From NCBI GenBank assembly GCA_030615745.1, contig JAUWYR010000026.1, positions 1-33,489 of the forward strand: 33,489 nt of DNA, in the 5' to 3' direction. Below the pieces are notes generated by a model. The model saw nothing but the letters and a program-made list of their open reading frames with translations. It did no database searches and was not told the DNA's origin. Every line of letters starts with the position of its first letter. The stretch's first letter is position 1. The DNA is from Candidatus Zixiibacteriota bacterium. Its GTDB lineage: Bacteria; Zixibacteria; MSB-5A5; SM23-73-2. Below are positions 4,613-33,250 of this stretch, piece by piece. The position numbers and the translations under genes were made by a program.

Positions 4613-7216
4613 ATGCTAAGATTTTTTGCTTCAACATCTTTAGTTTTTCTGTTTTTGTTTAACTTAGGTTTTGCTTTTGACTCACTTAAAAAATCAGAAG
4701 AACAGGAGCTTGCAAAAGTTCAGCAGATGATCGAAAACAAAGGTTATCTGTGGATTGCTAAAAAGACCTCTTTATCCGGTCTTTCGGATGAGGAGTTTCA
4801 AAAGCTTTTGGGTGTTAAAGTTCCAAAAGGATATGAGGAAGAAGGAAAAGATAGGATTTTCAAATTGGAAAAGCCAATGAGTTTCCCTTCTGTTTTTGAC
4901 TGGAGGGACGAAAACGGGGTTACCCCAGTGAAAAATCAGGGTGGTTGTGGTTCCTGCTGGGCTTTTGCAGCCCAGGGCGCATTTGAGTCGATGATAAAAA
5001 TCTATGACTCCATAGAATATGATCTTTCCGAACAGCAGATTTTATCCTGTAACGTTTATGGTGCAGGATGTGATGGGGGCTGGATGGATTATGCATATGA
5101 GCTTTTCAGATCATACGGCTCTGTTTTGGAGTCTTGTATGCCCTACACTGCAACTGATACTGTAAGTTGTGATCAATTGAGTTGTGAGGTTGTTGACAGG
5201 ATTTTTGGGTGGACAAATGTTTCCGGTGATGTTAACTCTTTAAAAGCAGCAGTTCTGACCGGACCAGTTGCATGTGCTATGACTGTTTATGACGATTTCA
5301 AGCATTATAGTAGTGGGTGCTATGAGAACCCCGGCACAAACCCGGTTAATCATGCGGTTTTAATTGTGGGCTGGGATGACACCCAGTGCGCTGGAGACGG
5401 AGCCTGGATTATGAAAAATAGCTGGGGAGCTGGTTGGGGAATGAATGGATATTTTTATATTAAATATGGAACCTGTAACATTGGATATGGAGCAGATTTA
5501 TTAGATTATTCTCCATCCAATCCAATTCAGCTTGCTTATAAAAATTATGAATTTTCAGATTCAACCGGAAACAACGATGGAATAATTGACCCAAAAGAAA
5601 CGATCAGTTTGAAAATAACCTTAGAGAATGTATTTAAACAGGATGCCACAGGGGTTGGGGCTGTTTTGAGAACTTCTGTTTCTGGAATTGATATACTCGA
5701 TTCAGTTGCTCTCTATCCAGATATACCAAAAGGTGAAAGTAGAGCGTCTTTTCATCCACATTACACCTTCGAGGTGGATAGCTTGGTTAATTCAGGGACC
5801 AGAGTTGATTTCACTTTGAGCATTTGGTGTAATGAAGGAAGCTACCTCGATAGCTTTTATCTTTTTGTGGGCAGGCTTTTCACTATATTTTTCGATGATA
5901 TGGAGGGGGGTGAGGATGGCTGGACCCATGATGCTATTTTTAGTTACGATGACTGGGAGTATGGAATTCCCTTAGGAGGGTCAAGATCTGATCCAAAATT
6001 TGCCTTTTCCGGAAGCAAAATATGGGGAAACAATCTTAACAGTGAGTATCCTTTTAGTTCAACCAACTACCTCGAATCTCCAGAGATCGATTGTGAAGAA
6101 TATAAAAATGTTAGGTTACAGTATCGCCGCTTCTTAGGAGTGGAGAAAGGCATCTATGATCAGGCAGAGATTTTGGTGAATGGAAACTTAGTCTGGCAGA
6201 ACCAACTTTATTATGACCAGATCGATTATGAGTGGGAGTTTCACGATATAGATATTTCTTCTTTTGCTGATTTTAACTCTTCGGTGAAGATAAAATTTCA
6301 ATTGACCTCAGATGGGTGGGTCGAGTTTGGTGGATGGAATATAGATGATTTCAAAGTTGTTGGAGTCTACCCATTTTCTGCTCCTGGTGCTTTCTGTTTA
6401 ATCTTTCCATATGATAAAGATACTGTATGGGATTTAAGCTCCCATCTGTTCTGGCATGAAAGTTTTGACTTCGATCCAGATGATACAATTAAATATACTC
6501 TTTTTTTCTCAACTGACAGCTCTTTTTTCACCTTCGATTCAGTATTTACTTCAACTGACACAAATTATACTTTGTCTGGTTTGTTAGATGATACCAGATA
6601 TTTCTGGAAAGTTAAGGGGGTTAACACCTCTGGTCTTTACCGATGGTCTGATTCTACTTTTGATTTTTTGACATATCTTATTGAACCACCTTGTGATTTC
6701 AACTTGATTTTTCCTCCGGATGATACATTGATCTATGAGGATAGTTTAACTTTAATCTGGGAAGAAGTCTCTGACCCTGACCCTGATGACTCTGTGTTTT
6801 ATACTTTATATCTCAGCAGATCTCAAGTTTTCGATTTCGATTCCACTCAGCTATTCGATTCTTTGAGACAGAGTCAACAAAATGTTTCAGGGCTTTTTTC
6901 TGATACATCTTATTACTATTGGAAAGTTAAAGCATATGATCTTTGGGGAAGACAAAGATGGTCGGACCAAGTTAAAAGATTTACTGTTCAGTCATGGATG
7001 CGAGGGGATGTAAACACTGACAAATCTTTATCTTTAGCTGATGCAATCTATTTAGCTAATTTTCTCCTTAAAGGAGGTTCCTCACCTTTTCCTTTAGCTT
7101 CAGGAGATTGTGACTGTGATGGTTTTATAAAACTTTCAGATGTGATCTTTTTAGCCAATTATTTATTAAAGGATGGACCGAAACCGGGCTGTCCCTATAT
7201 TTTAGGGGAATGTTAA
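4613..7216 (+). CDS. secreted papain-family (C1A) cysteine peptidase with C-terminal dockerin
   Basis: An 867-aa exported protein, ATG behind AAGGAG. A signal peptide (1-21) is followed by a short propeptide-like region (22-90). The mature papain domain begins at VFDWRDENGVTPVKNQGGCGSCWAF. Catalytic residues are in place: oxyanion Gln109, nucleophile Cys115, His247 in NHAVLIVGW and Asn269 in KNSWGAGWG. After residue 300 come an Ig-like domain (GNNDGIIDPKETISL), a jelly-roll-like segment opening with MEGGEDGWTHD (about 430-590), two fibronectin-III-like repeats with D-x-D-P-D-D signatures (about 600-790) and a two-repeat type I dockerin (796-867) with calcium-loop patterns DVNTDKSLSLAD and DCDCDGFIKLSD. 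It should be an active extracellular endopeptidase tethered through its dockerin. Papain enzymes with dockerins are uncommon in well-studied cellulosomes. Confidence 0.93.
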   Translation: MLRFFASTSLVFLFLFNLGFAFDSLKKSEEQELAKVQQMIENKGYLWIAKKTSLSGLSDEEFQKLLGVKVPKGYEEEGKDRIFKLEKPMSFPSVFDWRDENGVTPVKNQGGCGSCWAFAAQGAFESMIKIYDSIEYDLSEQQILSCNVYGAGCDGGWMDYAYELFRSYGSVLESCMPYTATDTVSCDQLSCEVVDRIFGWTNVSGDVNSLKAAVLTGPVACAMTVYDDFKHYSSGCYENPGTNPVNHAVLIVGWDDTQCAGDGAWIMKNSWGAGWGMNGYFYIKYGTCNIGYGADLLDYSPSNPIQLAYKNYEFSDSTGNNDGIIDPKETISLKITLENVFKQDATGVGAVLRTSVSGIDILDSVALYPDIPKGESRASFHPHYTFEVDSLVNSGTRVDFTLSIWCNEGSYLDSFYLFVGRLFTIFFDDMEGGEDGWTHDAIFSYDDWEYGIPLGGSRSDPKFAFSGSKIWGNNLNSEYPFSSTNYLESPEIDCEEYKNVRLQYRRFLGVEKGIYDQAEILVNGNLVWQNQLYYDQIDYEWEFHDIDISSFADFNSSVKIKFQLTSDGWVEFGGWNIDDFKVVGVYPFSAPGAFCLIFPYDKDTVWDLSSHLFWHESFDFDPDDTIKYTLFFSTDSSFFTFDSVFTSTDTNYTLSGLLDDTRYFWKVKGVNTSGLYRWSDSTFDFLTYLIEPPCDFNLIFPPDDTLIYEDSLTLIWEEVSDPDPDDSVFYTLYLSRSQVFDFDSTQLFDSLRQSQQNVSGLFSDTSYYYWKVKAYDLWGRQRWSDQVKRFTVQSWMRGDVNTDKSLSLADAIYLANFLLKGGSSPFPLASGDCDCDGFIKLSDVIFLANYLLKDGPKPGCPYILGEC

Positions 7217-13990: not shown

Positions 13991-14764
13991 ATGAATCAAG
14001 AGAAATGGGTTACCAAGATTACAAAGATCGAAAAAGGGAAGATAAGTGTGAGGGGCTATGATATAAAAGAGATGATGGAGAAACTTTCCTTTGGGGGTGC
14101 TGTGTTTCTTCTTCTTAAAGGAGAACTTCCAACTGAGGCTGAGTCAAAAATGATGGAGGCGATTTTGGTCTCATCAATTGACCATGGGGTTACTCCACCG
14201 TCCTCTTTTGCCTCAAGATTGGTCATCTCCGGAGGAAATCCGATAAATTCAGCAGTTTCTGCTGGTGTTTTAACTATCGGAGATTTTCACGGAGGTGCGA
14301 TTGAACAGTGTGCGAAAATTTTACAGGAATGGGCTAAAAAAGAAGAAAATATCGAGAATTTGGGTAAATCTTTGGTGAAAGATTTCATCTCAAAGAAAAA
14401 AAGGATTTTAGGTTTTGGACATAGACTTCATGAAACTGACCCGAGAACAGTTAAGCTTTTCGAGATCGCTTGTAAATTGAATTTTTCAGGTAGACATATG
14501 GATTTAGCCAAAGCTGTTGAATCTGAGTTAGAAAGACAGACAAAAAAAAGATTGCCCATTAATGTGGATGGAGCTATTGGTGCGGTTATCTCTGATATGG
14601 GATTTGACTGGAGATTGGGCAAGGGATTTTTTATCATCTCAAGAGTTCCCGGGCTTATTGCCCATGCTTATGAGGAGTGGACTACCCAGAAGCCTATGAG
14701 AAGATTGGCGGATTTAAGCTACGAGTATGGGGGAGCAGAGGAGAGAAGGATTCACAGCAGATGA
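13991..14764 (+). CDS. citryl-CoA lyase / short citrate-synthase-family protein
   Basis: A 257-aa protein matching the core of citrate synthase but much shorter than the usual 370-430 aa, the length I recall for citryl-CoA lyase (Ccl) of Hydrogenobacter-type reductive TCA cycles. Ccl splits citryl-CoA into acetyl-CoA and oxaloacetate. The catalytic triad of the fold is kept: His65 in SSIDHGVTPPSSF, His144 in GFGHRLHETDPR and Asp193 in NVDGAIGAVI. FHGGAIEQ at 99-106 matches the citrate-synthase HGGA motif. SD GGAGG precedes the ATG. No citryl-CoA synthetase or other TCA gene adjoins it, so direction and pathway remain open. A stand-alone citrate-synthase-like activity is the alternative. Confidence 0.75.
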   Translation: MNQEKWVTKITKIEKGKISVRGYDIKEMMEKLSFGGAVFLLLKGELPTEAESKMMEAILVSSIDHGVTPPSSFASRLVISGGNPINSAVSAGVLTIGDFHGGAIEQCAKILQEWAKKEENIENLGKSLVKDFISKKKRILGFGHRLHETDPRTVKLFEIACKLNFSGRHMDLAKAVESELERQTKKRLPINVDGAIGAVISDMGFDWRLGKGFFIISRVPGLIAHAYEEWTTQKPMRRLADLSYEYGGAEERRIHSR

Positions 14765-14855
14765 AACGGATGGAGCAGATGATTCCCAACGGATTGAACG
14801 GATGATTCACAGAAGATTAAGCAGATTGAACAGATAAAGCAGATTAAGGGGATGA
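14749..14855. repeat. CAGATT/CGGATT repeat tract (minus-strand copy of the CTGTT repeat family)
   Basis: Irregular 10-14-bp units such as GCAGATTGAACAGAT and CCCAACGGATTGAACGGAT begin at the last codons of the preceding gene. The reverse complement matches the tract at 32470-32590 closely, including TGTTGGGAAT and ATCTGCTGTGAAT. Shorter copies are at 19590-19640 and 31298-31320. Confidence 0.65.
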
Positions 14856-14917
14856 ATTCCTTGTGAAAACAAGTGTTTGATTTTTTCTACTTTTTTTAAA
14901 AAAACTTCATTTTTTCC

Positions 14918-14946
14918 TTGACAACTGCACTAATGTGCAGTATATT
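14918..14946 (+). promoter_or_regulatory. lexA promoter with embedded LexA operator
   Basis: TTGACA (14918-14923), a spacer of exactly 17 bases and TATATT (14941-14946) form a near-consensus sigma70 promoter. The spacer is almost wholly the inverted repeat ACTGCACTAATGTGCAGT (14924-14941), with 7-bp arms around TAAT. Its core TGCAC-N4-GTGCA fits the Fibrobacter-type LexA box TGCNC-N4-GTGCA as I recall it. LexA bound here would block polymerase, so self-repression is very likely. Confidence 0.82.
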
Positions 14947-14979
14947 GTTTGCTAGACGATAATAAAAAAGGAGGATTTT

Positions 14980-15591
14980 ATGGGTGAAAAATTGACCAGG
15001 CGTCAAAGGCAGATTTTTGAGTTTATCTCTTTTACAATTGAGTCCAAAGGGACTGCTCCGACCATAAGGGAGATAGGAAAAAGATTTAAGATCGCATCTA
15101 CCAATGGGGTTAGAGCTGTCCTTTCAGGTTTGGTTAAAAAGGGTTATATAAGGCGCAAGCCTATGGTATCGAGAGGAATCGAGCTGGTAAGAGAAATGAA
15201 AAGCTCCTTTATTAATGTCCCTATCTTAGGGAGGATTTCAGCCGGGCTTCCGGTTTTAGCTGTGGAGAATATAGAGGGAACAATAGCCCTGGATAAAAAC
15301 TTCTTCTCTGGTGGAGATATATTCTCTTTGAAAGTTCAGGGGAATAGTATGAAAGATGCTGGAATATTTGATGGTGACTATGTGGTGGCTCGTCAACAGC
15401 CAACAGCTGATAAAGGAGACATAGTTATCGCCATTATTGGTGAGGAGGCCACAGTGAAAAAATATTTCCCGGAGAATGGCAAAGTGAGACTGGAGCCAGC
15501 TAATCCAGATTTCAAACCAATAGTTATCCAAAGAAAAAGCCCGGAATTTTTCATTGCTGGAAAGGTGATCGGGCTTTTGAGGAAATTATAA
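14980..15591 (+). CDS. lexA: LexA repressor
   Basis: A 203-aa SOS regulator. The N-terminal winged helix-turn-helix (1-72) starts with KLTRRQRQIFEFI and carries TAPTIREIGKRFKIAS (recognition region) and VLSGLVKKGYIRR. The C-terminal S24 self-cleavage domain has the scissile Ala88-Gly89 in GRISAGLPV, nucleophile Ser123 in VQGNSMKDAGI and Lys160 in EATVKKYF. It should repress DNA-damage genes until RecA-stimulated autocleavage. SD AAGGAGG. Recognition-helix residues may differ from the E. coli type to match the TGCAC-type operator upstream. dinB lies 2.7 kb downstream on the same strand. Confidence 0.96.
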   Translation: MGEKLTRRQRQIFEFISFTIESKGTAPTIREIGKRFKIASTNGVRAVLSGLVKKGYIRRKPMVSRGIELVREMKSSFINVPILGRISAGLPVLAVENIEGTIALDKNFFSGGDIFSLKVQGNSMKDAGIFDGDYVVARQQPTADKGDIVIAIIGEEATVKKYFPENGKVRLEPANPDFKPIVIQRKSPEFFIAGKVIGLLRKL

Positions 15592-15656
15592 ACAGCATAG
15601 GAGCCTGTCTTAAAATTATGATTTGTATAGCGGAAGTCGAAAATTGATACTCTATT

Positions 15657-15779
15657 GTAGTGTTTCACTAATAGCTTTACTATCCTGTCATTCTCAAGCT
15701 TTGCGAGGAATCTCGGTAAGAGATTGCTTCGTCCACGTGGACTCGCAATGACAGTGTAAAGAAATATTAGAGACACTAC
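15657..15779. mobile_element. MITE-like imperfect inverted-repeat element
   Basis: A 123-bp element with ends GTAGTGT (15657-15663) and ACACTAC (15773-15779) and imperfect arms extending inward to CTGTCATT (15685-15692) and AATGACAG (15747-15754). Inside is AATCTC-GGTAA-GAGATT. The inner sequence resembles the widespread TGTCATTGCGAG...AATCTC intergenic repeat that I recall from many bacterial genomes. GACTCGCAATGACAG (15740-15754) recurs at 29511-29525. No coding capacity. Confidence 0.65.
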
Positions 15780-15879
15780 ACTAGTTTTCGCCCCGCTTTT
15801 AGCGGGACGGCTACCATTGTTTTAATTCTTGAATAGTCTCTTAGACAAAAAGTAAAAAGTTGCATATGTATCAAGAGAT

Positions 15880-17730
15880 ATGAAGAGTAAGATAATTCTT
15901 TTGGTTCTTGTTTTAATTTTTGTGATTCATTCTTTGCATTTAGATTTCACTCAGGATGATGCTTTCATATCTTTCAGGTATATAAAGAATTTTCTTTCTG
16001 GTCATGGTTTGGTCTTCAATCCGGGGGAGAGGGTAGAGGGTTATACCAATTTTTTGTTGATAATTTTTCTTTCTATTCTGGTCAAATCTGGACTGGATGT
16101 GATCTTTCTTTCCAAGGTCTTAGGGATTTTATCAGGGGCAGGGGTGATAATATTACTTTATCTTATTTCTTTAAGATATGTGGAAAGAAAATACTGGTAT
16201 TTTGCCTTGTTTCCTTCGGCGTTTTTAGTAGCTAACTCATCTTTTGCTTATTGGAGCATCAGTGGCTTGGAGACATCATTTTTTGCCTTTGGAATTTTGC
16301 TAAGCATCTGGTCATACTTTTATGATAGGAGATTAACAGTCGCCCTGTTAGCCATATCGTCTTTGATCAGGCCTGAAGGTGTTCTGATCTTTTTTATATT
16401 CATACTTTACCAGATTTTTGGGGAGAAGGAAAACTTAAAAAGATGTGCTCTATTTTTGGGTGGATACCTTTTGCTTTTGTTTCCTTATGCCGTATTCAAG
16501 TATTTTTATTATGGTGATTTATTGCCCAATACCTTCTATGCTAAAGCCGGGGTATCTTTGGAGCATTTAAAGTCTGGATTGGAATATTTTTTTAGATTTT
16601 TAAAAAATTATGGCTTTTGGGGATTAGGGTATATCATACCTGTTTATCTATATAAAAGTTTAGATAGACCACTTAAGTTTTTAGTCTGGGTTTTATTCGG
16701 CTACACCTTTTACCTCATCTTAATAGGGGGTGATGTGTTAAAGGTTCACCGGTTTTTTGTTCCGATTTTGGGCTTGGTTTATCTTTTCTTGGGTATTGTG
16801 ATAAGGCACTTCCATACCAAATTAGTTCGGAAGCCTTTATTAAAAACAGCCTTATACTCTGTAGCTATTGTAGCTCTGATCTCTACCTTTGTTTTTCCGA
16901 GAGAATGGGTTTTAAAGGTGAGATTTTATGAACAGTCGCTGGTATCTAAAATGAAATTTGTAGGGATGAATTTAAATACATATTTTGGGTCAGATTTTAC
17001 CTTAGCTGCTACTACTATTGGTGTTCTATCCTATGTTACTCCTGGCAAAGTGATCGATATGTTAGGGCTTTGTGATAGACATATTTCCCATAATCCAGAA
17101 TATATCGAAGGAATACCGCCAAGCTGGAAGGAGAGAAAATACAATGCTTGCTATGTGCTGTCACAGGATCCAGATTTCATAGTCTTCTCCACTGGAATGA
17201 AACCCTCAGCTCCAGCTGAGAGGGCACTCTATTTGCACTCTGAGTTTCGGGAGAACTATTATGTTTTTTCATTTGTTTCGGGTACACGTTTGGTTTCAGT
17301 ATTTAAGAAAAAAAATAGATATGAAAAAGAAGATAAAATCTTTACATCTGCCAAATTCGTAAATCTATATAATGAGGGGGTAAATCTCTCCTTAAGCAGA
17401 GATTACTCTGCTATTGCTAAATTCAAAGAAGCAGTGGCAGTGGGTCCTGAAGATTTTGCCTGGGCTTATGAAGAAATAGGGAGATGTTACTATAATTTAA
17501 AAGACTATTCCAATAGCAAGATATATTTAAAAAAAGCGATTCAGTTGGATGATTATTGTGTAGCTGCTCATCTCCTTTTAGGAGACATTTTTATACTTGA
17601 GAAGGAGTATGCACTTGCCTTAGAACAATATCAAAAGGCTGAATTATATAATCCCGGGATATTAGATAAAAGGGAAATGGAGAGATTGAAACGATTGGTA
17701 AAGCAAAAAGAGAATGGAGGCAAACAGTAG
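15880..17730 (+). CDS. polytopic membrane glycosyltransferase-like protein with C-terminal TPRs
   Basis: A 616-aa protein with about 9-10 membrane segments over residues 1-350, then a soluble part. The first loop carries FTQDDAFISFRYIKNFLSGHGLVFNPGERVEGYTN, the Asp-Asp loop typical of GT-C fold lipid-phosphosugar glycosyltransferases (GT39/AftB-like). The soluble region 350-490 reads like the extracytoplasmic part of that family (TIGVLSYVTPGKVIDMLGLCD). Residues about 495-605 form tetratricopeptide repeats (YNEGVNLSLSRDYSAIAKFKEAV, YEEIGRCYYNLKDYSNSK, LLGDIFILEKEYALALEQYQKA). It probably transfers a sugar from a polyprenyl carrier on the outer face of the inner membrane. The SD is weak. A truncated paralogue follows directly. 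Confidence 0.75.
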   Translation: MKSKIILLVLVLIFVIHSLHLDFTQDDAFISFRYIKNFLSGHGLVFNPGERVEGYTNFLLIIFLSILVKSGLDVIFLSKVLGILSGAGVIILLYLISLRYVERKYWYFALFPSAFLVANSSFAYWSISGLETSFFAFGILLSIWSYFYDRRLTVALLAISSLIRPEGVLIFFIFILYQIFGEKENLKRCALFLGGYLLLLFPYAVFKYFYYGDLLPNTFYAKAGVSLEHLKSGLEYFFRFLKNYGFWGLGYIIPVYLYKSLDRPLKFLVWVLFGYTFYLILIGGDVLKVHRFFVPILGLVYLFLGIVIRHFHTKLVRKPLLKTALYSVAIVALISTFVFPREWVLKVRFYEQSLVSKMKFVGMNLNTYFGSDFTLAATTIGVLSYVTPGKVIDMLGLCDRHISHNPEYIEGIPPSWKERKYNACYVLSQDPDFIVFSTGMKPSAPAERALYLHSEFRENYYVFSFVSGTRLVSVFKKKNRYEKEDKIFTSAKFVNLYNEGVNLSLSRDYSAIAKFKEAVAVGPEDFAWAYEEIGRCYYNLKDYSNSKIYLKKAIQLDDYCVAAHLLLGDIFILEKEYALALEQYQKAELYNPGILDKREMERLKRLVKQKENGGKQ

Positions 17731-17749
17731 AAGGTAACTAAATGGAGAT

Positions 17750-17917
17750 ATGAAGGAAAAATTAGTCATCTTAGCGCTTTTGACGATTTTTGTTGTTCAC
17801 GCTTTGTGCTTGAACTTCACTCAGGATGATGCTTTCATATCTTTCAGGTATATAAAGAATTTTCTTTCTGATTATGAAGATCGGTTGTGCGCTGTGGTCG
17901 GCGGACATATTAGATGA
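17750..17917 (+). pseudogene. truncated copy of the upstream glycosyltransferase N-terminus
   Basis: An ATG-started frame of 55 codons whose first 41 residues match the start of the preceding gene, through FTQDDAFISFRYIKNFLS. It then diverges and stops after 14 unrelated residues. At DNA level 17816-17870 is identical to 15946-16000 over 55 bases, while the codons before it are diverged. It is what is left of a tandem paralogue whose body has been lost. Confidence 0.8.
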
Positions 17918-17923
17918 AGACTT

Positions 17924-18187
17924 ATGAGTAATCTATCCGAAAGTTTTTTGGAATTGGATGAAAGGATCGGGGCTGGAGTGGTTTTTGGTCCAAAGGTTAA
18001 AATAAAGCCTCTGTGGTTCTGGTGGAGAGGTAGAAAATATCAGGTTAAAAAGATAACTTATACCTGGAAAACCAAAAAGGGGAGGGCAACTTTATATCAC
18101 TTCGCAGTTATAGATGAAAATGATAACCTTTTTGAGCTTTGCTATAACAGTGAGAGCCTGGTGTGGAAAATTTTAAGCTCTGCGTAG
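17924..18187 (+). CDS. DUF6504-like small protein upstream of dinB
   Basis: An 87-aa soluble protein with central WFWWRGRKYQVKKITYTWKT and C-terminal AVIDENDNLFELCYNSESLVWKI. The pattern of a WRGR-Y-V strand, a W, and a final L-Y-x-x-x-x-W strand resembles DUF6504, a small beta domain I recall next to or fused to Y-family polymerases (ImuB/DinB). Function unknown; a nucleic-acid or polymerase accessory role is inferred from context. The SD is weak (GAAG). A 17-codon frame beginning at 17874 ends at 17927, overlapping this start in ATGA. dinB follows 143 bases later, after GC-rich hairpin repeats. Confidence 0.55.
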   Translation: MSNLSESFLELDERIGAGVVFGPKVKIKPLWFWWRGRKYQVKKITYTWKTKKGRATLYHFAVIDENDNLFELCYNSESLVWKILSSA

Positions 18188-18270
18188 GGGCGGGGCTTAT
18201 CTCAGACAAACCCGCGTAGGGGCAGGGTCGTCAAGATCCTTCGGACTTGTCCCCGCCCGAAGTATGATAG

Positions 18271-18289
18271 GCGGGGCACCTTGCCCCGC
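18271..18289. repeat. GC-rich hairpin before dinB
   Basis: GCGGGGCA (18271-18278) and TGCCCCGC (18282-18289) form a perfect 8-bp stem with loop CCT. The same spacer has two GCGTAGGGGC(G/A)GGG copies (18181-18195 and 18212-18226). No T-tract. Confidence 0.55.
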
Positions 18290-18330
18290 AATCCTCAAAT
18301 GCATAGGTGTAAGAAACTAAAGAAGTAAAG

Positions 18331-19578
18331 ATGAAAGATTCGAGGGGTCCTTTAAAAAGAGTGATAGCTCATGTGGATATGAATGCTTTTTTTGCCTCAG
18401 TGGAGCAAAAACATAATCCCCATCTAAAAGGGAAGCCGGTTTTGGTTTGTGGCAACCCGGATGGTAGATCAGTGGTTGCCACTGCTTCCTACGAAGCAAG
18501 AGCTTACGGGGTTAAAACAGGGATGAGTTTGTGGGAGGCAAAAAGACTTTGTCCTAATGCGGTTTTGGTGCAATGCGACCCTGAGAAATATGTCTACACC
18601 TCGATGAAGCTTTTGTCAATCTACAAAATCTTCACTCCGAAAGTCGAGGCTTTCTCTGTGGATGAAGCATTTTTAGACCTCACCGGAACTCAGAGGCTTT
18701 TCGGCTCACCTGAAGAGATTGCCAGAAAGATAAAAAAGAGGATAAAAAAAGAGCTTGGACTTTTATGCTCAATAGGGATTGGCTCTAACAAGCTTTTAGC
18801 AAAATTAGCCAGCGACCTAAAAAAACCAGATGGCCTGGTGTGTCTTTCAGATGAAGAAGTTCCTCAAATTTTTGAAAAGCTCTCTGTTTCTTCTTTGTGC
18901 GGGATCGGTCCAAAACTTTCCTCTTATTTGAATAAATTGGGCATTCACACCTGCGGTGACCTGAAAAGGTATCCAAAAGAGGTTTTGGAAAAAAAGTTCG
19001 GTAAGGTCGGTCTTTATCTTTCTAATATGGGAAAAGGGATAGGTGATGATGAGGTTTTATTCTACTATCAGTCCGAGCCTATAAAATCTGTTGGTCATTC
19101 ACAGACTCTAAATGAGGATGCTTATTCTTTCGATGTGATAGAGAAACTTATTTTTCAATTGTCTGAGCAGGTGGGAGAAAGGTTGAGACATTATGGTTAT
19201 AAGGGGAGGACTGTTTGTTTAACTTTACGCTATTCCGACTTCTCAACTTTTTCCAAACAGAAGACTTTAAAGAGGTTTATCTGGGATGGAAGGGATATTT
19301 ACAAAGAGGCAATGAAGATCTTCGGGGTGTTGTATAATGGTTTTTATGGGATCAGGTTAGCCGGAGTTAGTGTCTCCAACCTGGTAAAAGAGAGTTTTCA
19401 GTTAAGCTTATTTGAAAAGGAGAGAAAAAAAGAGAAATTGCTTAAGACCATCGACAGAATAAACCAAAGGTATGGTGATTTCACCATAACCTGGGCAAGG
19501 CTTTTGGAGAAATCAAAAGGTGGTAATGTGATTCCACCCTCCTGGAGGCCGACAAAAAATCTTGTGAGCGTAAATTAA
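18331..19578 (+). CDS. dinB: DNA polymerase IV (Y-family translesion polymerase)
   Basis: A 415-aa translesion polymerase. The catalytic metal ligands are visible: Asp16 in HVDMNAFFASVEQ and Asp111/Glu112 in FSVDEAFLDLTG. YEARAYGVKTGMSLWEAKRLCP is the standard palm/fingers segment, and SIGIGSNKLLAKLASDLKKPDGL with GIGPKLSSYLNKLGI gives the thumb helix-hairpin-helix. The little-finger domain spans about 240-350. QLSLF at residues 357-361 is a beta-clamp-binding motif, placed before a roughly 55-residue tail rather than at the very end. I see no TGCAC-N4-GTGCA box upstream, so direct LexA control is not evident. A diverged duplicate of its 3' end lies at 22024-22107. Confidence 0.96.
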   Translation: MKDSRGPLKRVIAHVDMNAFFASVEQKHNPHLKGKPVLVCGNPDGRSVVATASYEARAYGVKTGMSLWEAKRLCPNAVLVQCDPEKYVYTSMKLLSIYKIFTPKVEAFSVDEAFLDLTGTQRLFGSPEEIARKIKKRIKKELGLLCSIGIGSNKLLAKLASDLKKPDGLVCLSDEEVPQIFEKLSVSSLCGIGPKLSSYLNKLGIHTCGDLKRYPKEVLEKKFGKVGLYLSNMGKGIGDDEVLFYYQSEPIKSVGHSQTLNEDAYSFDVIEKLIFQLSEQVGERLRHYGYKGRTVCLTLRYSDFSTFSKQKTLKRFIWDGRDIYKEAMKIFGVLYNGFYGIRLAGVSVSNLVKESFQLSLFEKERKKEKLLKTIDRINQRYGDFTITWARLLEKSKGGNVIPPSWRPTKNLVSVN

Positions 19579-19835: not shown

Positions 19836-21857
19836 CTAATATTCACATGGACATTCCTCAATAGGAACTGGAGGAGGACCACTTTTTAAAAGATAATTGG
19901 CTAGATATATCACATCTCCCAGATCGATTTCACAGTCGCAATTTACGTCGCCGGCTTCAAGTGGATCAGGAAAAGCACCGCCTTTCAAAAGATAATTAGC
20001 AAGATAAATCACATCTCCTAAGTCCACCTTCAAGTCAGCGTTTACATCCCCCGGAATAAATTCCGACACCTTGGGATGGGTGATTGCGTCAATATCACAA
20101 CCAGGATACCACTCGGTGGCGCTTCCATCATTATCATCTGTGATTTTGAGATATCTGATGGTATCTGTAGAGAGGGAGGAGATGTCAAATGAGGTGGTGC
20201 CATATCCATCACCTATATAGTACCAGCTTCCTCCATAGGGGAGGTTGCTCCAGTATACATAGTATCCATCAGAGGTGGGTCCAACCTCATGGACAGTAAA
20301 ATCTTCTCCGTCGATGTCCACTATGGGGGTGCTTTCACCCATATCCACCTCAATATGACCTCCTTTTCCTAAAGAGACGAAGATCCCATCCGGAAACCCT
20401 AAAACCGCGGAGGCGTTGGTAGGATTGTTTTGATATTGATAGGGCCAGTAATAAGGATCATAAAAATAGCAGGAGATAATATGTGTGGCAAAAAGCTCTA
20501 AAGCAGGTTTCAGGGCCACATTCAAGATGGTAGGGAAGCCCCCGTTTACCTTCACCTCGGAGATGGTGGTATCTTGATATCCGTTAGCAGAGAATTTTAA
20601 AGTATAGGTGCCTGACAGAAGATTCTTCTGATAGTCACCCACTATCGGATCGGTGAAAATCGGCTGTCCCAGTTCCATACACCTTATCATTGCTTTTAGA
20701 GGTTCTCCATTAGCGGCATCGGTTACTATTCCCCTGACTCCTTGATCTGTTCTCTCCATCATCGCCAATATGGCGTCTCTGTTCAAATTCCAGACATCGG
20801 GAATGTCGTAATTGTCGGTTTCAATGGTGGCATCTATGTCTCCCCTTGAGCCATAGCTCCAATCGTTACAATCTCCGTAGGTTTGATACCACTCATATCC
20901 TTCCACCACCCAATAGTTGTTATAAGAACCATATTCTTCAGAGATGTTCACAATAAAAGCACTATCTGCTACCGGGAAATCTTTGTAGTTCCATACGTGG
21001 TTTACTATGTCGCCAGAGGTGTGAAAGGATAAGGAAATAGAAAAGTTGTTTTTCATTGCATGTTCTCTGATGGTTTTTGTCTCAGGCTGAGAGAAAATAT
21101 CTGGCGTTATAAAATTCCACATGTAACCATAATCTCTGTTAAGGTCCACCCAATTAGCATTATATCTTGACCCGGCAGTCCTTCCATCTGGATTCATCAT
21201 TGGGATGATCCATATCTCAAGATCATTCACCAGATGCATTACCTGAGGATTAGAACCATAGTTATCTGTGAGATACTCAAGCATAAGGAGTGGTATCTCC
21301 ACGGACATAAATTCATTCCCATGATGACATCCGATAATCCTGAATTCCGGCTCGTCCTCCTCCAGAACTGGATTATCGCTTACCTTAGCTCCAAGAATCA
21401 TTCTTCCCAGAACTGAATAACCTAAGGTGTCTAAAATCAATATGTCAGGATGGTTCAGAGCTGCCTGTTCCATCTCCGCTACCATGTCGGAATAGGAGTG
21501 AAACTGACGGTCCCAATCCGTACCAAAAAGTGCAATGTTTCTCTCTTGGGGAGTCCAGAAGACAACCTCTACATTATACCCCTTTGCTAATAAATCATCC
21601 AATTGCTCAGAGTTGATGACCACATCCACCCAGTTGGGTCCAGTCGCATCGACATCCAGCCCCTTCTCTTTTAAAAGATTTCCCTTCTCCTGGATAGAGC
21701 TTACCCAAACACGAGCGTAAATCTCTTCAAAAGCCATTGCCTTAGAAGTTTGCCATAAAATAACCGAGCTTAGAACTAAACTGAAAATCAAAATAGATTT
21801 CAAGCTCATTGCGATTTTCCTTACAGGGATGATGAATAGTCGGACTAATTCCATCAT
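19836..21857 (-). CDS. secreted M14 zinc carboxypeptidase with dockerin
   Basis: A 673-aa exported metallopeptidase. The ATG at 21857 and the ATG at 21809 (Met17, which begins a cleaner signal peptide) both have AAGGA upstream; I keep the longer form. The M14 catalytic domain (about 115-375) shows zinc ligands His179 and Glu182 in CHHGNE and His279 in SLSFHTSG, substrate Arg226 in MNPDGR, the pair Asn240-Arg241 in DLNRDYG, and catalytic Glu346 in DATIETDN. A carboxypeptidase regulatory-like domain follows (RGIVTDAANGEPLKA, about 374-455), then a discoidin-like beta region (about 470-600). A two-repeat type I dockerin closes the protein (about 606-673; DVIYLANYLLKGG twice). It should trim peptides outside the cell. 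The gene is bracketed by dinB and a dinB 3'-end remnant. Confidence 0.93.
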   Translation of the reverse strand: MMELVRLFIIPVRKIAMSLKSILIFSLVLSSVILWQTSKAMAFEEIYARVWVSSIQEKGNLLKEKGLDVDATGPNWVDVVINSEQLDDLLAKGYNVEVVFWTPQERNIALFGTDWDRQFHSYSDMVAEMEQAALNHPDILILDTLGYSVLGRMILGAKVSDNPVLEEDEPEFRIIGCHHGNEFMSVEIPLLMLEYLTDNYGSNPQVMHLVNDLEIWIIPMMNPDGRTAGSRYNANWVDLNRDYGYMWNFITPDIFSQPETKTIREHAMKNNFSISLSFHTSGDIVNHVWNYKDFPVADSAFIVNISEEYGSYNNYWVVEGYEWYQTYGDCNDWSYGSRGDIDATIETDNYDIPDVWNLNRDAILAMMERTDQGVRGIVTDAANGEPLKAMIRCMELGQPIFTDPIVGDYQKNLLSGTYTLKFSANGYQDTTISEVKVNGGFPTILNVALKPALELFATHIISCYFYDPYYWPYQYQNNPTNASAVLGFPDGIFVSLGKGGHIEVDMGESTPIVDIDGEDFTVHEVGPTSDGYYVYWSNLPYGGSWYYIGDGYGTTSFDISSLSTDTIRYLKITDDNDGSATEWYPGCDIDAITHPKVSEFIPGDVNADLKVDLGDVIYLANYLLKGGAFPDPLEAGDVNCDCEIDLGDVIYLANYLLKSGPPPVPIEECPCEY

Positions 21858-22356: not shown

Positions 22357-24885
22357 TCAGTTACAAGGTGGTGGACCACCTTTAAGCAGATAGTTAGCTA
22401 AGTAAATGACGTCACCAAGATTTATCTTATCATCACAGTTCACATCTCCAGATTCTAAAGGCTGGGGCTCTGGTCCGCCTTTTAGCAAATAATTTGCCAG
22501 ATATATAACATCAGATAAGTTTATCTTCCAGTCGCCGTTAGCATCTCCTTTCAAATACTCGACAGAGTTATAGATGAAAGTATCAGGCTCATCTGGAGAA
22601 GGAGATGGTTGATTATCTGCCAAAAGTACCATGTCGCTCCCATCGATCCTTACCCCTAAGTCGTACTCACCGGTATCAGCTGGTTCAGCCACAACTTCAA
22701 TTAGATAATCACCAACTAAACGATTGGGCATAGTGACTAAGTCATCTAAATCTCCATCGTCGTTTAAATCTTGAGTGGTATCATAAGTTGCATCCGGGAT
22801 GGTGTTGAAATCTATACCAATGGAAGCACCAATTGGATCGATGATAATTAAATCTACTGGTGAGTAAGCTGCTACTACCAAGGTATCAGTCAAAAAGGAT
22901 TGATCAGAAACCATCACTTTGACAGGGATATAGACGCTATCGTTTCCTCCCTCATCATTCGACATGATTCGAATCGTGTCTACCAACAAAGTCTCAGCAT
23001 AAGTAAAAGCATCGATGGTCACCTCAATAAATTTCGGGCAAGCACCTTCTGGCAAAGAAAAACTGGTAGGCCGTAGATCAAGCCAATCAGCAGTTTCGAT
23101 CAAATTACCCATTAAGGTAGTAGTTCCAATATTTCTTATCCAAAAAGTCTCAACCGTTGTGCCACCGTTTTCAACAGCAAGCCAAAATTCCTTTGGAGCC
23201 CAATCGATTCGTGCTACAGCAGACACTGTAAGAGTATCCACCTTTTCTTTCTTATACATCACATAATTTTCTGTATAGATAACCCCCTGCTCCTCATCAA
23301 CTACACCTGCATCCCTGTCCAATATGTACTGGATATGCATAAAGCTGTCCACCCGGGTTGCTAAGGAGGGCCAGGCCTCGGAGTCACAATTACCAGCAGG
23401 GCACCCAGGAGACGGTGTTTGGGTAAGGTTTTTTGGCGTATGCCAGGTAAGACCGAGATTGGTGGAGAAGGAGAAATAAAGCTCCCCATTGCTATACCCA
23501 GAAGCTGATAGGTCATCATCGTCAAACTGTTGCCATACACAGAATAGCCAGCCCTGTTTTTCTGACCCAGGAATTCCAATACCTACACTCATCTTGGATA
23601 TAAGCCTGTTCCAAGCCCAGGGATTGGTGTGAGTTCCATCTGACTTGCGAGTCGCCACCACAGTATACCTCACTGTGTCATCGCCAGGACATACCAGCTC
23701 TATATTCGGGCTCCAGTGCATCAACTTAACATCATAGGGGTCATATTTTCCAATCGCCTCCCTCAGATAGTGAGCATTCCAGAAAATATGAAGATTGTGA
23801 TCTAAATCATAAACACCAGCAAGGTCACAATAAGTCCTGTAAGGGTCATTCGATTTCCATCTGGTGATATTGGTATAGGTAAAATCACCAAAGGTATCTG
23901 CATGAATCCAGTCATTCCCACAGCTATCCGACTCAATATACCAGACATCCTGGGCAATTTGGCACTGAGAAGTGTCGTCAGAAACAGGCCAGTTTTCAGT
24001 CCACTTTGTCCAGACCAGAGCTACTTTCTTGGAGTGTGGGTCTGTTGTTACAATATAGCTTTCACATGAAGTGTGGTCGAGATAAGAAACCAAAGAACCG
24101 GGTTGGCAGAACTGGTCTGCGGTAATATAATAAGGTCCTCTTCCTGGACCCTCACATCTTAAAAGGTTCCCTTCTGGAGTACAACGAACATAGCCTATAG
24201 GATATGTCCCATGTGCAATTATACCTTCAAGTGCCAGAACATGAATATTACCGCAGGAATCTATACCTCCGTGAGGCCACATCCCTGCTTCCTCCATCGT
24301 CTCAGTAGAGTCAGGTATATCATATAGCACAAATTCGCCTGCACCTGGAGTAGCAGATGTGTCTATGGCGATCATGGTTCTCCTGGGACTTGGCTCAGGA
24401 TATTTTGCTGCGGTGGTATGATAAATCACAGCAATATGACTGTCCAAGAAAATATCAAGACCAGCAAATCCAGTAGAAACACTATCAACTGCGACCTTAT
24501 TTTGCCAGCTACCACCTGTATCATTATATCTGTAATTTACATAACGCGAGACTGGAGGTTCAGCAGGCCATTCCGTCCAGCAGAAATGCTGTCCATTGAT
24601 TCCACCCTGGTAATCGTTGGCTATCATCTTCGGCATTGAGCAAGGTTGCTGAGGTTCATACCAAGTGGTGCCGACAATGGCATCCGCAGTAGGTCTGAAC
24701 GAACTCGGAACATAACCTGTTGGTGACTTTAACAAATATTGCGAAATATAATTCTCCGGTGTAGAGTCAATCGGCTTCAAAAGCTCAGATTTCCGAACAG
24801 TAGATTTCTCAGCAAAAGCAAAACCAAAAACCAGAACCGAAAATACCAAGAAGAAAGCAAAAACTAACAAAACTTTTCTTGACAT
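22357..24885 (-). CDS. large secreted BNR-propeller-like protein with BACON-like domain and dockerin
   Basis: An 842-aa exported protein. The frame is open 19 codons further upstream, but the ATG at 24885 has AGGAGG 6 bases before it and opens a clean signal peptide (MSRKVLLVFAFFLVFSVLVFGFAFA), so I take that start. Residues about 45-560 are rich in Trp, Asp and Gly and contain sialidase/BNR-type pieces (GELYFSFSTNLGLTWHTPKNLT, KVALVWTKWTENWP, NLHIFWNAHYLREA), suggesting a six-bladed propeller; catalytic sialidase arginines are not obvious. About 565-680 is a BACON/ASH-like beta domain (WLDLRPTSFSLPEG). A two-repeat dockerin (about 775-842) ends the protein. The substrate is unknown. It would be surface-exposed or released, possibly a binding or glycan-processing component. 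Confidence 0.8.
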   Translation of the reverse strand: MSRKVLLVFAFFLVFSVLVFGFAFAEKSTVRKSELLKPIDSTPENYISQYLLKSPTGYVPSSFRPTADAIVGTTWYEPQQPCSMPKMIANDYQGGINGQHFCWTEWPAEPPVSRYVNYRYNDTGGSWQNKVAVDSVSTGFAGLDIFLDSHIAVIYHTTAAKYPEPSPRRTMIAIDTSATPGAGEFVLYDIPDSTETMEEAGMWPHGGIDSCGNIHVLALEGIIAHGTYPIGYVRCTPEGNLLRCEGPGRGPYYITADQFCQPGSLVSYLDHTSCESYIVTTDPHSKKVALVWTKWTENWPVSDDTSQCQIAQDVWYIESDSCGNDWIHADTFGDFTYTNITRWKSNDPYRTYCDLAGVYDLDHNLHIFWNAHYLREAIGKYDPYDVKLMHWSPNIELVCPGDDTVRYTVVATRKSDGTHTNPWAWNRLISKMSVGIGIPGSEKQGWLFCVWQQFDDDDLSASGYSNGELYFSFSTNLGLTWHTPKNLTQTPSPGCPAGNCDSEAWPSLATRVDSFMHIQYILDRDAGVVDEEQGVIYTENYVMYKKEKVDTLTVSAVARIDWAPKEFWLAVENGGTTVETFWIRNIGTTTLMGNLIETADWLDLRPTSFSLPEGACPKFIEVTIDAFTYAETLLVDTIRIMSNDEGGNDSVYIPVKVMVSDQSFLTDTLVVAAYSPVDLIIIDPIGASIGIDFNTIPDATYDTTQDLNDDGDLDDLVTMPNRLVGDYLIEVVAEPADTGEYDLGVRIDGSDMVLLADNQPSPSPDEPDTFIYNSVEYLKGDANGDWKINLSDVIYLANYLLKGGPEPQPLESGDVNCDDKINLGDVIYLANYLLKGGPPPCN

Positions 24886-24900
24886 CTCTGCCTCCTCTCT

Positions 24901-24930
24901 GTTAGGTTGATATAAAAAGGTTAACCTAAC
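24901..24930 (-). promoter_or_regulatory. inverted repeat in the leader of the BNR-like gene
   Basis: GTTAGGTT (24901-24908) and AACCTAAC (24923-24930) form a perfect 8-bp inverted repeat with a 14-base centre, 16 bases before the chosen start codon. It could be an operator or an mRNA hairpin. Confidence 0.35.
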
Positions 24931-25098
24931 CCCATCCCGCATTCACTCTTTTCTACTCTTTTAACCTCACCTCCTTGTATTATAAATAAGGTTTTTGTTA
25001 ATAGAAAAAAAGGGTAAACATTGCCAAAAAAAACATAAAAAAGAGAAACAAAATTAGAACCCCTATGTTTACTCTTTAAGTTTTAAAAGACTCTTTTT

Positions 25099-32662: not shown

Positions 32663-33250
32663 TTACTTGCAAAGGTCCTTGAATCCATCCACTGTGAACA
32701 TGCTCGGCTGATCCGGGAACGGAATCTCATTCGGGAAGCGTGCATAATCGTCCGGTGGAGGTCCACTCTTGAGCTTGTAGTTGGCAATATAGATAGCATC
32801 AGCAATATCACAATCACCATCTTTACTCAGATCCACATCACCCTGGTCTCTGAAAGGCATAGGCTTAGGTCCACTCTTGAGCTTGTAGTTGGAAATATAG
32901 ATTGCATCAGAAACATCGCACTCACCATCGTCGTTCGGATCTCCTCTGTAGAAGCCTGCGAACTTCAGAGCATCACACATAAACGCGTCCATAGGTGGAG
33001 GTGCAGGATCACCAGTTATGGTAACAATGGTCTGAGTTGATCCAGGAAGAAGAATGAATGCATTGGTGGTGTGAAGTAGAGACATATCATTTGGACCCTG
33101 TGTAGTATCATAGATATCCCAATCAGTTCCATACATCAGATTGAATAAGCTGTCTCTGTCCAGACCCCATCCACCAAAAGGATGCACATAAATGGTGTTA
33201 TCCAGACCCTTGAATCTCTCTTGCACAATTCCATGAACCGGCAAGAACAT
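32663..33250 (-). CDS. dockerin-containing secreted protein, C-terminal part (frame interrupted upstream)
   Basis: The listed start is simply the first ATG after an in-frame TAG at 33305-33307. No Shine-Dalgarno precedes it, and the coding sequence clearly continues upstream past the TAG to the window edge. The visible 195 residues hold a beta-rich region (residues 1-100) and a two-repeat type I dockerin with calcium loops DPNDDGECDVSD and a second built on DLSKDGDCDIAD, each followed by AIYI(S/A)NYKLKSGP. Unlike the other dockerins here it reads NYKLKSGP instead of NYLLKGGP, and about 30 residues follow it (ending FKDLCK). The GC content looks higher than in neighbouring genes. The catalytic role is unknown. 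Confidence 0.75.
   Translation of the reverse strand: MFLPVHGIVQERFKGLDNTIYVHPFGGWGLDRDSLFNLMYGTDWDIYDTTQGPNDMSLLHTTNAFILLPGSTQTIVTITGDPAPPPMDAFMCDALKFAGFYRGDPNDDGECDVSDAIYISNYKLKSGPKPMPFRDQGDVDLSKDGDCDIADAIYIANYKLKSGPPPDDYARFPNEIPFPDQPSMFTVDGFKDLCK

Follow-up and report, generated by a model that had tools for sequence, protein, structure and literature searches.

The repressor LexA has changed its operator many times between bacterial phyla, and two of the known forms serve as points of reference here, the Fibrobacter LexA box, with the consensus TGCNC-N4-GTGCA, and the Gram-positive box, GAAC-N4-GTTC. A further form is that of E. coli, CTGT-N8-ACAG (PMC8565304); compared with it, the Zixibacteria box described below keeps the outer CTG-N10-CAG frame and differs in its inner bases.

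The window, that is, the whole stretch of 33,489 nucleotides that was analysed (contig C38 of a 2.28-Mb, 98.6% complete genome, hereafter the source genome), carries a lexA gene preceded by the palindrome ACTGCACTAATGTGCAGT. We consider it about 93% probable that this palindrome is the operator of the LexA encoded downstream, which would bind there and repress both its own gene and that of a Hel308-type helicase until induction. In the literature searched, from which subscription journals are mostly absent, no relevant report was found on Zixibacteria and LexA, nor on LexA together with Hel308 or HelQ. What would be new, then, is not the operator type, which is a known one, but its apparent use in a lineage for which no report was found, with a helicase as the commonest predicted target. 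Genomes, contigs, loci and families are given below by our own handles (G, C, L and f numbers).

Anatomy of the lexA promoter

The predicted operator consists of two perfect 7-bp arms, ACTGCAC and GTGCAGT, around the centre TAAT (Table 1), and lies in a promoter with 11 of the 12 consensus bases and a 17-base spacer, the top promoter match within 14700-18700. The initial annotation had described a near-consensus promoter with just this spacer in front of lexA, and had placed the operator exactly between -35 and -10. Promoter and gene are as described there, and reading confirms the placement except at its very end: since the palindrome has 18 bases and the spacer 17, the last T doubles as the first base of the -10 hexamer, and the spacer proper corresponds to the first 17 bases of the palindrome.

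Table 1. Coordinates of the lexA promoter region, lexA and dinB in the window
Feature	Position	Strand	Basis
-35 hexamer TTGACA, lexA promoter	14918..14923	+	direct sequence reading
LexA operator (predicted) ACTGCAC-TAAT-GTGCAGT	14924..14941	+	sequence reading, genome scans, class comparison
-10 hexamer TATATT	14941..14946	+	direct sequence reading
Ribosome-binding site GGAGG	14970..14974	+	direct sequence reading
lexA, 203 aa, winged-helix DNA-binding domain and S24 autoprotease	14980..15591	+	TIGR00498, PF01726, PF00717
dinB (DNA polymerase IV)	18331..19578	+	best family 366 bits

The product of the gene matches TIGR00498 over the whole protein with 212.5 bits against a curated cut-off of 110.95, and both the winged-helix (PF01726) and the S24 (PF00717) domain are present. 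The cleavage site A88-G89 and the S123/K160 dyad align with the E. coli LexA chains and are invariant in 18 LexAs of the class; judged by these features the protein is a complete LexA. Its closest named relatives in the genome collection, at 68% and 67% identity, both belong to candidate division Zixibacteria MAGs, and on this basis the uncultured source bacterium is assigned to Zixibacteria. As a separate observation, a second, divergent LexA (36-41% identity) occurs at G007:C1:139938-140510, G024:C41, G042:C60, G047:C7, G014:C235 and G023:C64, the first of these adjoining a RecA-like match (C1:139420-139773), which may be imuA of a mutagenesis cassette.

The register of box and promoter is conserved beyond the window: of 49 lexA promoters of the class, 35 have a -35 element with at least five of six consensus bases immediately in front of the box. 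The other 14 lack this exact combination of register and good -35, and they include the seven f4 promoters and the two of f16; for G009, the read-out of the promoter-locked sites considered below placed the lexA box further upstream.

An inverted repeat in this position could, in principle, be a hairpin that terminates transcription of the citryl-CoA lyase gene upstream (13991-14764) as an intrinsic terminator, and a terminator scan does list 14924-14941 as a 7-pair stem. The tail, ATATTGTTTG, is however no T run. Moreover, just 13 of the 48 lexA boxes of the class are able to pair at all seven arm positions, whereas individual letters hardly vary (G12 and T18 in 93 of 93 boxes, C15 in 92 of 93), and the palindrome is locked to TTGACA/TAT ahead of several different genes. 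What is conserved is thus the letters rather than the pairing, and a hairpin function is exceedingly improbable; instead LexA very probably shuts off its own gene from this palindrome between the promoter halves.

Rarity of the site

TGCAC-N4-GTGCA occurs a single time in the window, where 0.22 occurrences would be expected by chance at one mismatch allowed. Throughout the source genome the 10-base core alone is seen at two places with approximately 1.06 expected from base composition, and for this reason the core alone was not taken as proof. The promoter-locked pattern TTGACNNNTGNNCNNNNGNNCANTAT is far more discriminating: it is found at two places against 0.019 expected from base composition, namely lexA and the Hel308-type helicase gene and no others. 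Allowing one mismatch adds no place and a second one brings in 11, where the reversed control has three places altogether at up to two mismatches. Extended to 59 genomes (the source genome and 58 others of its class), the locked pattern yields 64 sites in 42 genomes, compared with none for the reversed control in all 59, and this rules out a chance origin of the box.

Without the promoter, CTGCAC-N4-GTGCAG is present at 45 sites in 30 of the 59 genomes versus four control sites, and ACTGCAC-N4-GTGCAGT, at up to three mismatches, at 26 places in the source genome versus eight for the control. Among the 15 of these 26 places that were read in context only lexA and the helicase gene have the promoter lock, and the remaining 11 contain no match to the locked pattern at zero or one mismatch. 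TGCNC-N4-GTGCA is found at nine places in the source genome, the other seven being internal to long frames and lacking a promoter lock.

Comparison with the Fibrobacter box

The Fibrobacter consensus was tested in the lexA promoters of the phylum of a named Fibrobacteria MAG, nGRbin1 (60 genomes, 50 of them with LexA), where the best 30 loci were read. In 27 of these 30 promoters TTGACA directly precedes the box, and in 14 of the 30 an exact TGCNC-N4-GTGCA stands in that register, a typical promoter being TTGACA-ATTGCCC-AATT-GTGCATT-ATATTT; two of the remaining three have a locked site before lexA in the locked-pattern scan (L369, L372). The window operator satisfies the same consensus at 14926-14939, in the same register between TTGACA and TATATT, and the recognition helices are near-identical, SSTNGVRSILAALIKKG being the commonest in the nGRbin1 phylum and ASTNGVRAVLSGLVKKG that of the window LexA, with STNGVR common to both and followed by a small residue and V/I-L. 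Both the Fibrobacter-type label of the initial annotation and the helix comparison that it proposed are therefore borne out. The two forms are not the same in every respect, the window and its order having the fully symmetric ACTGCAC-N4-GTGCAGT or a form near to it where the nGRbin1 phylum mostly has TGCCC-N4-GTGCA. More distant helices differ further: in the alignment E. coli LexA has E, E and H where the window LexA has R45, A46 and V47, and the Bacillota helix reads SSSTVH.. in contrast to STNGVR.. in Zixibacteria.

The locked pattern is present once each in 24 of the 60 genomes of the nGRbin1 phylum, with three places for the reversed control. Nineteen of these sites precede lexA, two a uvrA-like gene and three appear chance-like, and no helicase lies downstream of any of the 24. 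The site before the uvrA-like gene (L364, L382) is TTGACTNTTGTTCATTTGTTCACTAT. Among named relatives, GCAC-N4-GTGC also occurs in lexA promoters of Eisenbacteria (L186, L212), and an Omnitrophota MAG (L213) has the variant CGCAC-N4-GTGCG; the lexA boxes of the Fibrobacteria MAG itself (L145) and of one from Latescibacterota (L146) are GAAC/GTGC hybrids.

A Hel308-type helicase as the commonest predicted target

The second locked site of the source genome, TTGACA-TCTGCACAAATGTGCAG-TATATT, lies on contig C41 directly 5' of the gene for a 908-aa helicase. Most of the length of this protein aligns with archaeal Hel308 structures (2zj2, 6.7e-56; 2p6r) and its first half with the DNA polymerase theta helicase, a likeness which places it near the archaeal Hel308, HelQ and Pol theta family. 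It scores 320 bits with NF002654 and 242.7 bits with the Hel308 model NF040935, for which the cut-off is 1200, and falls below every curated Hel308-type cut-off, so that we call it Hel308-type rather than Hel308. From the archaeal family it differs also in being bacterial and LexA-boxed.

Sorted by the downstream gene, the 64 locked sites of the 59 genomes comprise 36 before the helicase, 18 before lexA (16, together with L007 and L012, where dinB follows lexA and had given the script label dinB), five before dinB and five before other genes or nothing recognisable; 59 of the 64 thus precede one of these three genes. The helicase itself is present in 53 of the 59 genomes and is boxed in 46 of the 48 with a readable upstream region, 45 of these having at least 12 of the 14 locked positions and G001 a 16-base spacing. 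Not counted were G046 (72 bp upstream), G058 and the second G014 piece (no upstream region) and G053 (N-terminus missing). The only unboxed helicases are those of G018 and G033, both of family f11, in which no LexA was found although these genomes are 99% and 93% complete; a second helicase copy of G033 (L324) is likewise unboxed. In f11 (L321, L323, L324) the repressor and its operator hence seem to have been lost together.

Two further observations concern the neighbourhood of such boxes. In families f4, f5, f7, f8, f10, f12, f13 and f16 the LexA box and the helicase gene are separated by a small cysteine-rich, zinc-ribbon-like reading frame of some 55-90 aa (L292, L293, L300, L306, L307, L320, L264, L289, L296, L266 and L265, among others); this frame is absent from the order of the source genome, and two examples gave no Pfam family above cut-off. 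In addition, a LexA-like box precedes a protein with an FRDPIHG or IRDPVHG start and an HD-like stretch in two phyla (L102 in G005, L259 in G004, and L316 in the Latescibacterota genome G062).

recA, dinB and the size of the regulon

The canonical SOS arrangement, in which recA is under LexA control, is not found in the source genome: the 300 bp upstream of recA contain no box, nor is there a full-box site at up to three mismatches near the gene on its contig. Among 30 recA loci that were read, a clear, Gram-positive-like box is present in three f4 loci only (L067, L073, L074), with weak boxes in L065 (f12) and L051 (f15). The dinB gene of the window similarly has no box upstream, though dinB carries a locked box in five other genomes of the class. 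In several other families dinB follows shortly after lexA on the same strand; in the window the two are separated by a 616-aa TPR-repeat gene and a copied fragment of its beginning, and consequently dinB may either be transcribed from the lexA promoter or have departed from the regulon. The intervening stretch (15880-18331), with the 616-aa gene and a second copy of its 5' part (~15947 and ~17817), is likely an insertion with partial duplication.

With both recA and the window dinB unboxed, the regulon seems much reduced in comparison with that of textbooks. The initial annotation had offered the box as a seed motif for the SOS regulon, and had noted that absence of the motif from all other DNA-damage genes would speak against it; as a seed it led to the Hel308-type helicase gene but not to recA or to the window dinB, and with the source genome's helicase and dinB in five other genomes the motif does recur before such genes. 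The same data raise the question of whether the autoregulation of lexA alone is real and the helicase stands outside the damage response. An unboxed recA, which leaves no full SOS circuit visible, would be compatible with this, and the response of the helicase gene is read here from its promoter sequence. Against it, the helicase promoter of the source genome matches the pattern as well as the lexA promoter does, and the frequency with which helicase genes are boxed across the class exceeds that of any other gene found. A switch confined to lexA is accordingly very unlikely, and control of both genes by LexA remains our reading.

Drift of the operator within the class

The box is by no means uniform within the class. 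At lexA the form GCAC-N4-GTGC is found in f1, f2, f5, f7 and most of f8 and f13, GCAC-N4-GRGC in f3 and much of f10, GAAC-N4-GAGC in f15, and GAAC-N4-GAAC in f12; in f6 and f9 GTGC is combined with a degenerate left half. Families f4, f14 and f16 approach the Gram-positive box: their lexA boxes join AAC- or GAAC-like left halves to N4-GTTC, and their helicase boxes mostly read ACTGAAC-N4-GTTCAGT. The Gram-positive form is separated from the window box by a single base in each half-site (A to C). Both box types mostly retain the outer CTG-N10-CAG frame. The proposal that the Fibrobacter-type operator extends to the present lineage thus stands for the box at lexA in the window, but not as a fixed trait, given the GAAC-N4-GTTC and hybrid boxes in parts of the class.

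The lexA and helicase operators, which are unlinked, co-vary. The helicase box type tracks the lexA box type over 43 genomes (Spearman 0.86), and the means of 15 families give 0.87 with a permutation p of 0.00025, in which kinship is still included. In a tree built from LexA C-terminal domains (where G055 was omitted as partial, and G027, with its frame broken, forms a very long branch) the lexA box type changes five times and the helicase box type four times. Independent pairs number one on starred branches and five on all, too few for a sign test, such that, with regard to cause, the co-variation is no more than suggestive. Within Zixibacteria the box thus drifts towards the Gram-positive GAAC-N4-GTTC by way of hybrids, at lexA and the helicase in step, but with few independent switches. 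A comparison of A-type and C-type LexAs revealed no one residue that sets the box type; E occupies position 52 in 14 of the 16 A-type proteins and in three of the 32 C-type ones, and position 47 is I, V, H or L in 32 of 32 C-type and A, S, T or M in 12 of 16 A-type proteins.

This pattern also bears on whether the site could be used by a palindrome-binding regulator other than the window LexA. Binding by LexA is deduced from sequence, and boxed helicases persist in three genomes in which no LexA was found, G022 (92% complete), G034 (96%) and G001 (86%), as another regulator would allow. Yet the site stands at lexA itself across the lexA-bearing families, its type changes together with the LexA family, the helicase box is missing in the two f11 genomes without LexA, and in the nGRbin1 phylum, too, lexA is preceded by a box of this kind in the same register. 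Another regulator is on these grounds highly improbable, and we retain LexA as the protein that would occupy the site.

A putative helicase-centred switch

Judging from the family and from the anatomy of the promoter, a LexA dimer on the palindrome would fill the spacer and hide the face bearing -35 and -10 from RNA polymerase, thereby repressing lexA itself and, via the near-identical promoter-operator on another contig, the helicase gene. On DNA damage, RecA filaments would trigger self-cleavage of LexA, the residues for which are present, and both genes would be turned on; elsewhere in Zixibacteria the same switch would also drive dinB. Such a helicase-centred switch points to a small and unusual damage response.

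More broadly, we think it rather probable that Zixibacteria possess a minimal SOS response, of which the core effector is neither recA nor a mutagenic polymerase but a LexA-controlled helicase of the Hel308/HelQ/Pol-theta type (forming in many families one unit with the small zinc-ribbon protein), and that the operator has moved between Fibrobacter and Gram-positive forms through surviving hybrids while the regulon was kept, so that intermediates of a change in the repressor code are preserved. If so, the helicase as the commonest LexA target would widen the purpose of SOS, towards stalled forks rather than lesion bypass. The forms GCAC-N4-GTGC, GCAC-N4-GRGC, GAAC-N4-GAGC and GAAC-N4-GTTC coexist within a single class, each genome having the box at two unlinked genes, and alongside them the recognition helix shows a definite set of changes. 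The transition that links the Gram-positive box to that of Fibrobacter is thereby amenable to testing with purified proteins.

A further feature of the window concerns several large, exported-looking proteins (4613-7216, 19836-21857, 22357-24942 and 32663-33250), which carry near their C-termini paired dockerin-like repeats of the type GDVN.D..I.L.D.IYLANYLLK.G..P.
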